Shown piece after piece: positions 25,607 through 42,116 of a DNA stretch of 64,000 bases. A program made the position numbers and the translations under genes. Under the pieces are notes generated by a model. The model made no database searches. It was not told the origin of the DNA and was given only the letters and a program-made list of their open reading frames with translations. Source of the DNA: Rhodovarius crocodyli (lineage in GTDB: Bacteria; Pseudomonadota; Alphaproteobacteria; Acetobacterales; Acetobacteraceae); the NCBI RefSeq assembly GCF_004005855.1, contig NZ_SACL01000001.1, positions 186,001 through 250,000 of the forward strand, in the 5' to 3' direction. Numbering within the stretch: position 1 is the first letter of the stretch; every line of letters starts with the position of its first letter.

Positions 25607-25855
25607 CCGGGGCTTCGCCCCGGACCCCAGCAAGGGGCTCTGCCCCTTGCATCCCCGCCAAAGGCCGAAAGGCCTTTGGAAACCAGTGATTGGCACCAAC
25701 CCTGTCAGTTAGGGCACCAATCCACGTTAAAAATCAATCAGAAACACGTATTCAGACAATGGCACCAAACTCCCTGGGGTCCAGGGCCGCTACGGTCCTG
25801 GCGGGGTTCCAAGGGGCAGAGCCCCTTGGTCGGGGCCTGGGGGCAAAGCCCCCAG
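25607..25855. repeat. Composite hairpin repeat element, copy 1
   Basis: Six stem-loops are arranged around an AT-richer core: 25607-25623, 25631-25649, 25658-25679 (9-bp perfect stem, GAAA loop), then after the core 25780-25800 (9 bp with one G-T), 25809-25829 and 25837-25855. The core (25680-25775) holds three GGCACCA motifs near 25691, 25712 and 25760. The 32 bp at 25776-25807 are identical to 40415-40446 in copy 2, and the cores align too. The outer arms are inverted relatives of each other. It fills the space between kup and dnaG. It resembles a MITE/REP-type element; I do not recognise a named family. Confidence 0.8.
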
Positions 25856-25858
25856 CCT

Positions 25859-27787
25859 TCACACCGCGATCCGAACGCCCAGCTCCACCACCCGGTCCGG
25901 CGGAATGCGGAAGAACTCCGTCGCCGGCATCGAATTGCGCTGCATGGCGCGGAACAGCCATTGCTGCCATTTCCACAGCTTGGGCACCGCCGCCTGCACG
26001 ATCGTCTCGCGGCCGAGGAAGTAGCTGGCCTGCATCGGCTCGAAGGCAATGTGCCCTTCGGCGTTCAGGGTCTCCAGCTCACGCGGCACGTTGGGGCTTT
26101 CCTGGAAGCCGTAGTGCAGCATCACGCGATGGATGCCCGGGGCCAGCTCCACCACCTCGCGCCGGCGGGCGTCGCCCACCACGGGGATGTCCTCGTTGGA
26201 GACGGTGACGAACAGCACCTTCTCGTGCAGCACCTTGTTGTGCTTCAGGTTGTGCAGCAGCGCGCCGGGCAGGAAGTCCTTCTCGCCGGTCATGAAGATG
26301 GCGATGCCGGGCACGCGGATGGTGCGGCTCTGCGGCAGGCGCGCCAGGAAGGACTTCAGCGGCAGGCTGTCCTGGCGCAGGCGCTGGAACAGCAGCTGCC
26401 GGCCCTGATACCAGGTCGCCATCATCGCGAAGGTGATCAGGCCCAGGATCATCGGCACATAGCCGCCGTCGGGCACCTTCAGCGCGGTGGCGATGAAATA
26501 GCCGAGGTCCAGCAGCAGCAGCGGCACGAACACCACAGCCACCCGCAGCATGGACCAGCCGAACACCCGGTGCAGCACGATGGTGGCCAGGATGGAGCTG
26601 GCGATGAAGGTGCCCGTGACCGCGAAGCCATAGGCGGCGGCCAGCGAGTCACTGTTCTTGAATTCCAGCACCAGCACCAGCACGCCGATCAGCAGGATGG
26701 TGTTGATCTGGGGTACATAGATCTGCCCTTCCTCGGTGGCCGAGGTGTGGCGCACCACCAGCCGCGGCAGCAGGCCCAGCTGCACGCATTGCCGGGCGAT
26801 GGAGAAAGCGCCCGAGATCATGGCCTGGCTGGCGATCACCGTGGCCAAGCAGGCCAGCACGACCAGCGGCAGGCGCAGGATTTCCGGCGCAAGCAGGAAG
26901 AACGGGTTCTCAATGGCCGTGGGCTCGCGCAGCAGCAGCGCGCCCTGGCCGAAATAGTTCAGCGCCAGCGCCGGCAGCACGAAGGCCGACCACATGATCC
27001 GGATCGGCCGGCGCCCGAAGTGGCCCATGTCGGCATAGAGCGCCTCGGCGCCCGTGACCGACAGCACCACGGCACCCAGCGCGATGAAGGCCGCCGTGTG
27101 GTAATGAAGCACGAAGTTGAAGGCGTAGCTGGGAGACAGCGCCAGCAGCACGGAGGGATGCAGCAGTACCTCCCACAGGCCGAGCAGGCCGATCGCCAGA
27201 AACCACAGCGCGCAGATCGGCCCGAAAACCTTGCCCATCTGCCCGGTGCCCCGGTACTGCACCGCGAACAGCGCGATCAGGATCAGCAGGGAGCCGGGGA
27301 CCACCGCTTCCTCGAAGATCGGGTCCACCACCTTCAGGCCTTCCATCGCCGACAGCACCGAGATGGCCGGGGTGATGATGCCGTCGCCGAAGAACAGTGA
27401 GGCGCCGATGATGCCCAGCATCACGACGATCCATCGCCCGCGCGTGGTGGTGGTGGTCCGCATCGCCAGCGCCATCAGGGCCAGGATGCCGCCCTCGCCC
27501 CGGTTGTCGGCGCGCATGATGACCATCACGTATTTCACCGTGACCGTCAGCATCAGCGACCAGAAGATCAGGCTGAGCACGCCCAGGATCTCCCACCGCT
27601 CGATACCGCCATCCTCGAAATGCAGCAGCGAGGCCTTGAGCGCATAGAGCGGCGAGGTGCCGATATCCCCGTAGACCACGCCCAGCACGCCCAGCGCCGA
27701 GGCGAGGGTCAGCTTGCTGTTGGCCTCATGGCCGTGTGCGGGCGGGGCCGCGTCGGGGGCGGAGCCGGTGGGCTGTGCATCGCTCAT
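25859..27787 (-). CDS. kup: Kup-type low-affinity potassium uptake transporter
   Basis: Kup imports K+ with protons through a protein of about 12 helices. The 642-residue product has the N-terminal signature [21 protein letters not shown], then [41 protein letters not shown] and [12 protein letters not shown]-like segments ([17 protein letters not shown]), followed by the hydrophilic C-terminal half. ATG 27787 is chosen; an in-frame GTG lies three codons upstream. The stop is 3 bp from the composite repeat. A strong terminator for tolB separates it from the tol genes. Confidence 0.97.
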
Positions 27788-39453: not shown

Positions 39454-40245
39454 ATGAATATCGCCGTGAAGACCAGCGCGAAGCCCGCGCATATCTCCGA
39501 GGAAGAGTGGCAGATCCGCTGCGACCTGGCCGCGCTGTACCGGCTGGTCGCGCATCACCGCATGACGGACCTGATCTACACCCACCTGTCCGCGCGCCTG
39601 CCCGGCGATGAGCATCACTTCCTGATCAACCGCTACGGCGTGCTGTTCCATGAGATGCGCGCCAGCGACCTGGTGAAGGTGGACCTGCACGGCAACGTGC
39701 TGGAGGACGGCGCGGGCGATGCCATGTCCTCGCCCAAGGTGAACGCGGCCGGCTTCACCATCCACTCCGCCATCCACATGGCGCGTGAGGACCTGATGTG
39801 CGTGGTACACACCCACACCTCCGCCGGCATCGCGGTCTCTGCCCAGAAGCACGGGCTGCTGCCCATCAGCCAGCATGCGCTGCGCTTCTACGGCCACCTG
39901 GCCTATCACGGCTATGAGGGCATCGCCCTGGACCTGGACGAGCGCGAGCGCCTGATCGCCGACCTCGGCCCCACCCACAAGGCGATGATCCTGCTGAACC
40001 ACGGCCTGCTGGTCGGCGGCCGCACCATCCCCGAGGCGTGGTCGCAGATCTACTACCTGGAGCGTGCCTGCCAGGCGCAGGTCGCGGCCCTGGCCGGCGG
40101 TGCCGAGCTGGTGCTGCCGCCCGAGGAAGTCCGCCTCAAGACCGCTGCCCAGTTCAACAGCCCGCGCACGCTCGACAGCTCCCAGTTCGCCTGGGACTCC
40201 TCGCTGGCGCTGATCGAGGGCCAGGGCAGCGACTGGCGGAGCTGA
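39454..40245 (+). CDS. Class II aldolase/adducin family protein
   Basis: The 263-residue protein has the zinc site histidines of the fuculose-phosphate aldolase group: VVHTHTSAGIAVSAQ (His-x-His) and ILLNHGLLVGG, with the N-terminal CDLAALYRLVAHHRMTDLIYTHLSARLPG segment. Members cleave phosphorylated or hydroxylated sugars and acids; the close adducin-like subgroup has no proven reaction. AGGAG at about 39444 precedes ATG 39454. A composite repeat element follows its stop by 7 bp. Confidence 0.92.
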   Translation: MNIAVKTSAKPAHISEEEWQIRCDLAALYRLVAHHRMTDLIYTHLSARLPGDEHHFLINRYGVLFHEMRASDLVKVDLHGNVLEDGAGDAMSSPKVNAAGFTIHSAIHMAREDLMCVVHTHTSAGIAVSAQKHGLLPISQHALRFYGHLAYHGYEGIALDLDERERLIADLGPTHKAMILLNHGLLVGGRTIPEAWSQIYYLERACQAQVAALAGGAELVLPPEEVRLKTAAQFNSPRTLDSSQFAWDSSLALIEGQGSDWRS

Positions 40246-40252
40246 GGAAGGC

Positions 40253-40491
40253 GGGGGCGTTGCCCCCGGCCCCCATTGAGGGGCGCCGCCCCTCAAACTC
40301 CCCGCCAGGAGATAATATCTCCTGGACCTGATATAAGTTGGCGCCCACCCTCGCAGGCCGGGCGCCATTTTTATTATAATAATCAACGCCATCAGGGTTT
40401 GGCGCCAACCCCCCGGGGTCCAGGGCCGCTACGGTCCTGGCGGGGTGCAGGGGCGGAGCCCCTGCGCGGGGTCCGGGGCAAGGCCCCCCGG
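40253..40491. repeat. Composite hairpin repeat element, copy 2
   Basis: This copy lies between convergent genes and has the same order of parts as copy 1: stem-loops 40253-40267, 40277-40295 and 40305-40325 (9-bp perfect stem, AAT loop), an AT-richer core with three GGCGCC motifs near 40341, 40361 and 40401, then hairpin 40419-40439, 40447-40465 and 40473-40491. The 32-bp block 40415-40446 is identical to 25776-25807. The left part of the core aligns with copy 1 (ACCCTNNCAGNNNGGGCRCCA), while stem bases differ yet keep pairing, as expected for a selected structure. Orientation is the same as in copy 1. It may also act as a bidirectional terminator. Confidence 0.8.
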
Positions 40492-40493
40492 CG

Positions 40494-42116
40494 CTACCCC
40501 AGATGAAAACTGTTCGCCGGCTCCGCTCCGAAATGCCGGCTGCCGCGCAACCGCGCCGTCATCCCCCACACATAGGGCGCGGCGGAGGCCAGCAGCGCGA
40601 ATTGCCGCTCCGTCAGCCTCAGCCCGGCCTGCCTGGCCATGCCCTCGACCAGCGCCAACTCGGCAACGGTCAGTTCCACCGGTGCCGGTTCCGGCACGGG
40701 CGGCAGCGGCGGCTGGGGCGCGCCGGGCACCAGGGCGGGCCGGCGGGCGCGCCAGGGCGTCGCGCGTTCATAGGCATCGGCGATGGCCAGGATGCGCGCA
40801 TCGGCCTGGGGTGCGCCCACCAGTTGCATGGACAGCGGCAGGCCGCCCTCCGTGTAGCCGATGCATTGCGCCAGCGCCGGGCCGCCCAGCACGTTGAAGG
40901 GCGTGGTCAGCGAGGCCTTCTGCCAGAACTGGATGGTGCGCCAGGCACAGAGCAGCGGTGCCGGGCCGGGCCCCGCCGTGACCAGCGCGTCGTATTTCTC
41001 CCACAGCGGCGCGGCCTGTTCAATCATCACCCGGCGTTCCCGCTGAGCGTTCATGTAATCCCCAGCCCCGATCAGGATGGCGGGCAGGGACCGGCCCAGA
41101 AAATCCTCCCCGAAGCCGCCGGGGTCGGCGCGCAACATGGCCTCATGCACCGAATACAGCTCGCTTTCGGCGGCCACGATCTTCACGTCGCAATAATCCT
41201 GGGCGGGGCGGATGCGCACATCCTCCAGCTCCGCGCCCAGGCCGCGCATCACGCCCAGCGCCTCCTCCATCGCGGCGCGCAGGGCGGGGGCGACGGGCAG
41301 TTCCTCCTCATACTGGTGGCGCAGCACGCCGATGCGGATGCCCTTCAGATCGCCACCCAGGGCACCCGCGAAATCGGTGGGCGGCATGGCGGCGCTGCCG
41401 GGGTCCAGCGGGTCATGCACGGCCAGCGCCTGCATCAGCAGCGCCACGTCGCGCACCGTCCAGGCCATGGGGCCGGCATGGTCGAAGGAAAAGCTGTTGG
41501 TCCAGACCCCGCGCCGGCTGATCAGCCCATAGCTGGGCTTCAGCCCCGCCAGGCCGCACAGGGCCGCCGGGTTGCGGATGGACCCGCCCGTGTCGCTGCC
41601 CATCGCCGCCATGGCGAGCCCCGCCGCCACCGCGGCCCCGGAGCCGGATGACGACCCGCCCGTGAAACGCGCCGTGTCCCACGGGTTGCGCGCGGGCGGG
41701 AAGGCCACGTCGAAACTCGGCCCGCCATGGGCGAATTCATGCGTCGCCAGCTTGCCCAGCAGCACCATCCCCGCCTGGCGCAGCAGCGCCACGCTGAAGG
41801 CGTCCTGCTCCGGCACATGGTCCAGCGCGGTGCGGGAATGGCCGGTGGTGCGGATGCCGGCGGTGCAGAAGATGTCCTTCAGCGCATAGGGGATGCCATG
41901 CAGCGGCCCCAGATAGCGCCCGGCCATGATCTCGGTCTCGGCGGTGCGGGCCTGGTCCAGCGCCTGGTCCGCGGTCACCAGCAGATAGGCGTTCAGCTGG
42001 TCGTCCAGCGCCTCGATCCGCGCCAGGAAGGCGCGGGTCAGCTCGACGGGCGAGAGCTTGCGCGCCGCGATCAGCGCGCCGGCCTCCGCGATCGAGAGGA
42101 AATGCAGCTCGGTCAT
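40494..42116 (-). CDS. Amidase signature-family enzyme (first of two)
   Basis: The 540-residue protein has the amidase Ser-cisSer-Lys motifs: YALKDIFCTAG (Lys), FTGGSSSGSGAAVAAGLA and GSDTGGSIRNPAALCGLAGLKPSYG (catalytic Ser). It is longer than most because of a Pro-rich C-terminal extension of about 70 residues. The GatA/AtzE branch hydrolyses amide bonds; the substrate is unknown. ATG 42116 overlaps the stop of the second amidase (ATGA), making one unit. Its stop lies 3 bp from the composite repeat. Confidence 0.92.
   Translation of the reverse strand: MTELHFLSIAEAGALIAARKLSPVELTRAFLARIEALDDQLNAYLLVTADQALDQARTAETEIMAGRYLGPLHGIPYALKDIFCTAGIRTTGHSRTALDHVPEQDAFSVALLRQAGMVLLGKLATHEFAHGGPSFDVAFPPARNPWDTARFTGGSSSGSGAAVAAGLAMAAMGSDTGGSIRNPAALCGLAGLKPSYGLISRRGVWTNSFSFDHAGPMAWTVRDVALLMQALAVHDPLDPGSAAMPPTDFAGALGGDLKGIRIGVLRHQYEEELPVAPALRAAMEEALGVMRGLGAELEDVRIRPAQDYCDVKIVAAESELYSVHEAMLRADPGGFGEDFLGRSLPAILIGAGDYMNAQRERRVMIEQAAPLWEKYDALVTAGPGPAPLLCAWRTIQFWQKASLTTPFNVLGGPALAQCIGYTEGGLPLSMQLVGAPQADARILAIADAYERATPWRARRPALVPGAPQPPLPPVPEPAPVELTVAELALVEGMARQAGLRLTERQFALLASAAPYVWGMTARLRGSRHFGAEPANSFHLG

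Follow-up and report, generated by a model that had tools for sequence, protein, structure and literature searches.

A dispersed composite palindromic repeat at gene 3' ends of Rhodovarius crocodyli, possibly a two-way RNA barrier

What kind of element occupies the spacer between kup and dnaG in the genome of Rhodovarius crocodyli, and what might it do there? The spacer of this tandem gene pair (names assigned by Pfam) harbors an array of hairpins (copy 1), which lies 3 nt from the kup stop codon (25859-25861); the start codon of dnaG is located 33 nt beyond its other end. The initial annotation of the window (the whole stretch of 64,000 nt that was analyzed) considered it either a REP- or MITE-like mobile element or a structured regulatory or terminator element. 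The reading favored here, with a probability of about 0.5, is that the array belongs to a dispersed, BIME/REP-like family of composite palindromes at gene 3' ends, with a possible role as a two-way RNA barrier.

The anatomy of copy 1 agrees with the original description. Six hairpins are arranged in mirror order around the core (Table 1), and the outer arms form a large imperfect inverted repeat of 43 nt (86% complementary, 138 nt apart). The AT-rich core indeed contains three GGCACC motifs (25692-25697, 25713-25718, and 25761-25766), and a 32-bp block at 25776-25807 is exactly identical to 40415-40446 in a second copy. The fold of copy 1 has z-scores of -8.7 on the plus strand and -8.3 on the minus strand; none of 200 shuffled sequences was equally stable.

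Table 1. Coordinates of the two element copies in the window and of their parts
Feature	Position	Strand	Remarks
Copy 1, whole element	25607-25855	-	orientation A, from hpL to hpR, runs on minus
hp1, copy 1 (outer hairpin)	25837-25855	-	CTGGGGGC-AAA-GCCCCCAG in plus-strand letters
hp2, copy 1	25809-25829	-	CCAAGGGGC-AGA-GCCCCTTGG in plus-strand letters
P1 closing strand, copy 1	25802-25806	-	CGGGG on plus; partner is 25653-25657
hpL, copy 1 (near-invariant hairpin)	25781-25801	-	CCAGGACCGTAGCGGCCCTGG on minus
AT-rich core, copy 1	25680-25780	-	three GGCACC motifs
Core hairpin P3, copy 1 (degenerate)	about 25689-25721		
hpR, copy 1 (AAAGG subtype)	25658-25679	-	CCAAAGGCCGAAAGGCCTTTGG on plus
P1 partner strand, copy 1	25653-25657	-	CCCCG on plus
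hp2', copy 1	25630-25650	-	GCAAGGGGC-TCT-GCCCCTTGC in plus-strand letters
hp1', copy 1	25607-25623	-	CCGGGGC-TTC-GCCCCGG in plus-strand letters
Copy 2, whole element	40252-40491	-	
hp1, copy 2	40473-40491	-	
hp2, copy 2	40447-40465	-	
hpL, copy 2	40420-40440	-	within the 32-bp block common to copy 1
Core hairpin P3, copy 2	40338-40367	+	TTGGCGCCC...GGGCGCCA
hpR, copy 2 (common subtype)	40305-40325	-	CCAGGAGATAATATCTCCTGG on plus
hp2', copy 2	40276-40296	-	
hp1', copy 2	40252-40268	-	

Copy 2 takes up the 248 nt that separate two convergent stop codons (TGA 40243-40245, CTA 40494-40496) and folds with a z-score of -6.1 (plus strand). A 36-nt pattern across the shared block has two matches in the window and none in 100 shuffles, and GGGGCNNNGCCCC occurs nine times in the 64 kb (1.2 expected), with eight of the nine occurrences inside the two copies. 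A search for sigma-70 promoters in both copies yielded none. There were also no Rfam matches above the gathering threshold, either in the window or in 12 loci; the three sub-threshold matches in copy 1 had E values of 0.5 to 3.1.

The element is not restricted to these two sites. A 24-nt pattern of hpL and the next ACC, allowing up to three mismatches, has 65 matches in the genome of R. crocodyli (5.27 Mb, 48 contigs), 55 of which are exact, and none in the reversed control; the left hairpin is thus present in 65 copies rather than in the mere two unrelated matches that would have spoken against a repeat family. A full element with CCAGGAAACTCAGTTTCCTGG in place of hpL (L014, G000:C44:107909-108152) lies outside the 65 pattern matches, so that the true copy number must be higher. 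An architecture pattern, GGTCCAGG-N6-20-CCTGGCGGG, which detects hpR and, on the opposite strand, hpL, gives 79 + 71 matches in the same genome. The right hairpin was recognized in 60 of the 65 copies, and the five others were dropped; one of these (L015) has, by eye, a shortened hpR. The order of the parts is hp1-hp2-hpL-core-hpR-hp2'-hp1', which on strand A reads hp1, hp2, P1 (CCCCG), hpL (CCAGGACCGTAGCGGCCCTGG), core, hpR, P1', hp2', and hp1'. The usual hpR is CCAGGAGATATTATCTCCTGG, and a minority subtype, CCAAAGGCCTTTCGGCCTTTGG, is separated from it by double changes that preserve pairing.

The initial annotation had also noted that stem bases differ while pairing is kept. This holds across copies and genomes, but within the core of the R. 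crocodyli copies, the covariation is modest. An alignment of 57 of the 60 copies (L028, L069, and L080 were omitted because of core deletions) gave 16 pairs with RNAalifold, none of them compensatory. Since we think that gaps in this alignment misplace the core, the structure was given by hand, and P3 was then counted in a set of fixed length (30-nt frame, 37 of the 57 copies). With the hand-given structure, the proportion of paired cells is 94.7% in P1, 99.6% in hpL, 95.9% in hpR, and 74.3% in P3; in the fixed-length set, the pairing value of P3 was reached by 3 of 500 shuffles and its count of double changes by 17 of 500.

The family is, as far as found to date, almost confined to Acetobacteraceae. 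With a covariance model covering the 149 positions at the center, 17 of 100 relatives gave matches, all of them Acetobacteraceae, and none of 40 other genomes did; there were at least 31 matches each in R. crocodyli and in Rhodovarius lipocyclicus. The architecture (flank-hairpin) pattern occurs in 174 of 397 Acetobacteraceae genomes and in 55 of 102 genera (reversed control, 11 of 397 genomes), with 174 being an upper bound because some are single stemless matches (L148, L150, L151). Among other Alphaproteobacteria, it was encountered in 13 of 285 sampled genomes (4 in the control), usually as a single match and usually lacking a stem. Two genomes from one other family of the class (G580, G677) have clear flank hairpins of this type.

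What unites these relatives is the mirrored plan and not the sequence of the core. The GGCRCC motif, originally regarded as the hallmark of the core, does not define the family: in the other genomes examined, except that of R. lipocyclicus, a long, near-perfect hairpin of different sequence forms the core, and such cores occur also within the genus (G001, G003, G004, G007, G008). The 29 cores from other genomes, hand-picked from loci where a flank hairpin and a core had already been noticed, all fold at z-scores of -4.8 to -17.1 and contain 19 to 45 pairs; most flank hairpins of one genome (G354) are without such a core, and solo or half hairpins are common among the matches in other genomes. 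The outer plan in several of these genomes is often AAGGC-hairpin-hairpin-core-hairpin-hairpin-GCCTT. At 66 sites in other family genomes, which comprise many stem types and may include a few loci from outside Acetobacteraceae, the inner flank-hairpin pairs, which the pattern left free, are made up of 178 Watson-Crick, 4 G-U, 4 A-C, and 12 other combinations in 198 cells. In a genome with eight copies (G028), an arm scored on average 0.81 against its own partner, 0.61 against the partners of other copies, and 0.69 against the same arm elsewhere.

The position of the element is strongly tied to the ends of genes. Based on neighboring genes called by a codon-usage script, 33 of the 60 copies in R. 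crocodyli lie between convergent genes, 25 between tandem genes, and 2 at contig ends, and none lies between divergent genes. P1 is located no more than 62 nt from both stop codons in 31 of the 33 convergent pairs and no more than 60 nt from the upstream stop codon in 23 of the 25 tandem pairs; the downstream start codon is equally near in only 3 of the 25. In 462 kb of the genome, the element occupies about a quarter of the convergent junctions (13 of 56), 6 of 298 tandem spacers, and none of 56 divergent spacers (Fisher tests, p = 1e-7 and 1e-4; spacers of more than 900 bp were omitted from the count).

Such a distribution could also result from a purely selfish MITE- or REP-like repeat that survives between stop codons and is moved by a transposase other than RAYT, acting in trans or since lost. 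This explanation is the main rival of the two-way RNA barrier, yet we consider it unlikely on balance. In two contigs of R. lipocyclicus, convergent spacers free of the element are very short (median lengths, 12 and 19 bp), so that anything inserted between two stops should lie flush with them. Position alone, including the absence from divergent spacers, is thus explicable by insertion survival, and the dispersal of near-identical hairpins through the genome points in the same direction. So does the turnover of sites between congeners, which was evaluated in 0.8 Mb of the 4.6-Mb genome of R. lipocyclicus CCUG 44693 with matching flanks of 81-93% identity. Ten loci were judged by eye, one of which (L061) was not counted because its match is confined to a distant part of the flank; among the remaining nine sites, the element is absent at eight and present at the same gene end at one (L090). 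At one of the empty sites (L078), the convergent stop codons of R. lipocyclicus are separated by only 3 bp (TGA-GCC-TCA), as opposed to 256 nt in R. crocodyli. A 94-nt convergent spacer of R. lipocyclicus (G005, contig C2), which retains the outer hairpins and one inner hairpin but not the core, resembles an element in decay.

Other results speak against a purely selfish repeat. No target-site duplication was detected among the 60 copies, where the longest word shared by the two flanks averages 5.13, compared with 4.95 (sd 0.12) for mismatched flanks. The genome of R. crocodyli contains no match to the RAYT-type Y1 transposase (PF01797), and among 60 sampled Acetobacteraceae genomes, the five matches are found in 1 of the 26 hairpin-bearing and 4 of the 34 hairpin-free representatives; mobilization by RAYT is therefore unsupported, as the distribution of the gene does not track that of the hairpins. 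An autonomous parent was sought beside two half elements (L085, L096), and Pfam identified no transposase family among the neighbors, two of whose six proteins had no Pfam match at all. Moreover, the replacement of stems with pairing kept exceeds what a junk relic would need. The view of the element as a REP- or MITE-like mobile repeat thus holds with respect to its dispersed and structured nature (65 copies, site turnover) but is unsupported in the strict sense of a MITE with target duplication or of a repeat with a RAYT-type transposase; dispersal is shown indirectly, and copying by some mobilizer is inferred.

The idea that the elements mark synteny breakpoints was dropped because element-free convergent junctions are also broken. 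Only one of eight convergent junctions with an element is collinear with R. lipocyclicus, compared with 29 of 30 background tiles, and the corresponding comparison among convergent junctions gave three of eight without and one of six with an element; of the tile pairs that span an element and are mapped on both sides, four are collinear and one is not.

ERIC, RUP, and BOX are structured intergenic repeats, and Ype and Efa repeats lie near the 3' ends of coding sequences (PMC1590033, in excerpt). The present family is set apart from all five by its nested mirrored arms and interchangeable core, judging from their descriptions. Its likeness to MITEs lies in the short, non-coding sequence, the inverted terminal arms (43 nt, 86% complementary), and the turnover of sites; membership in this class is not demonstrated. 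No target duplication was detected in the 60 copies, and no parent transposon was seen beside the two half elements.

The closest resemblance is to BIMEs, judged by the features usual for them (inverted palindromic units, gene 3' ends, many copies), all of which are shared by the dispersed palindromes described here. According to excerpts of PMC3733652, BIME/REP sequences of the GTAG type are extragenic palindromes scattered through genomes; they often form pairs of opposite orientation and occur behind genes, where the flanking open reading frames are convergent or unidirectional. By contrast, the element measures about 250 nt and comprises six or seven hairpins in a fixed order; a terminal GTAG is absent, and in the 57 aligned copies, GTAG occurs only inside hpL, with the hairpin bounded by CCCCG and ACC/CGGGG. 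Unlike in RAYT-linked REPs, a Y1 gene is missing from R. crocodyli and from 25 of the 26 hairpin-bearing family genomes sampled. The lack of both the tag and the transposase excludes the family from the REP/RAYT group. The same excerpts state that the CGTC REPs of Alphaproteobacteria have no known dedicated transposase and are missing from Acetobacteraceae; the family resembles them in its alphaproteobacterial hosts and in having no known dedicated transposase, but the ends of its hairpins carry no CGTC tag (alignment, by eye).

The arms of the element also show a polarity. When the outer hairpins of the 60 copies are read from the core outward, G-U pairs outnumber A-C combinations 53 to 4. 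With distinct stems counted only once, the ratio is 30:5 in R. crocodyli (binomial p = 2e-5), 14:4 in other genomes, which may include a few loci from outside Acetobacteraceae (p = 0.03), and 10:3 in R. lipocyclicus (p = 0.09, not significant). Nearly all outward loops are purine-rich (AGA, AGC, AAC, AAA, GGC, and others). A small number of founder copies may have inflated these wobble counts. The lopsided wobble pairs suggest that the outward single strand of each arm is the one required to fold. The inner pairs of hpL and hpR read outward are likewise biased in R. crocodyli (46:1) and R. lipocyclicus (16:0), mostly because of one conserved wobble in hpL; the bias is absent from the flank-hairpin inner pairs of other family genomes (4:4; same 66 sites as above). 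In the core, P3 is biased toward G-U on strand B (35:10; 48:30 in the fixed frame).

From these features, a mechanism can be proposed for an array in which two mirrored arms flank a core that usually forms its own hairpin. Both outer arms look designed to fold as the single strand that leads away from the core; at the RNA level, this strand would be a transcript that has passed the core and will next run, in antisense, into the opposing gene. Transcripts from either flanking gene would enter the array, and some would end at the core hairpin. The remainder would fold the far arm, which could block 3'-5' exonucleases and perhaps also polymerase or Rho. Exonucleases trim RNA back to such hairpins, and the block would thereby fix the 3' ends of mRNAs between the two stop codons and limit antisense transcription into the neighboring gene. 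The acting form of the element would be RNA rather than single-stranded DNA, and its function presumably the formation of 3' ends. We put forward only tentatively that the repeat, widespread among Acetobacteraceae, is a modular two-way 3'-end element with arms polarized to act on whichever transcript is heading for the opposing gene and with an interchangeable core, which has spread without a REP-type transposase.

Alternatively, the element may be a plain terminator cassette, in which the core hairpin and its T-rich tail stop transcription and the arms are accessory. On strand B, 35 of the 60 copies have a stable hairpin with a T-rich run behind it, compared with 5 of 120 shuffles. Some copies with a long core (L003, L052) have a terminator-like hairpin also on strand A, the core of one other genome (L128 in G031) has the shape of a bidirectional terminator (AAAAAAGGGCCC...GGGCCCTTTTTT), and in a simple spacer of R. 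lipocyclicus, a comparable GGCGCC hairpin leads into a T-rich tail. However, strand A is at shuffle level overall (7 of 60 copies, 10 of 120 shuffles), so that the terminator would be one-way in R. crocodyli, and inspection by eye shows no T tract in the majority of the long cores from other genomes. Only 9 of the 25 tandem copies have strand B in the sense direction of the upstream gene, and ending the upstream transcript is therefore not a consistent role. Neither copy in the window qualifies: P3 of copy 2 is followed by the AT-rich stretch ATTTTTATTATAAT on the plus strand but was not scored as a terminator, and hp1', the sole hairpin with a T-rich tail listed for copy 1, is no better than shuffles. 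The terminator half of the original proposal is thus partly supported, by the copies in R. crocodyli as a set but not by the two in the window; as the whole explanation, a terminator cassette is improbable.

A structure of single-stranded DNA or a cruciform that serves a replication, recombination, or transposition protein would suit the large palindromes, the AT-rich center, which should ease extrusion, and the purine loops and one-sided wobbles (G-T is tolerated also in single-stranded DNA). Transcription, however, accounts better for the strict position at 3' ends and for the lack of copies in divergent spacers, and this reading is improbable.

For CGTC REPs, excerpts of PMC3733652 describe both the function of extragenic palindromes and their spread without a dedicated transposase as open. 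A larger, mirrored, RAYT-free element that reaches dozens of copies in some genomes and whose stems are swapped with pairing kept would be a natural data set for testing whether such repeats affect mRNA 3' ends and by which route they spread. Open-access titles and the opening parts of abstracts on Acetobacteraceae, Rhodovarius, REP-type repeats, or bidirectional terminators do not describe the family. The genome of R. crocodyli offers further variants. At one locus (L011), a run of about 22 C just right of hpR (about 1700-1730) is possibly an assembly artefact or the result of slippage. A second flank-hairpin subtype, GGTCCAGGGGCC(A/C)CAGGCTCCTGGCGGG, is found at G000:C1:88727, C2:143690, C3:24, C3:57458, and C4:50848 and probably represents another subfamily of the element.
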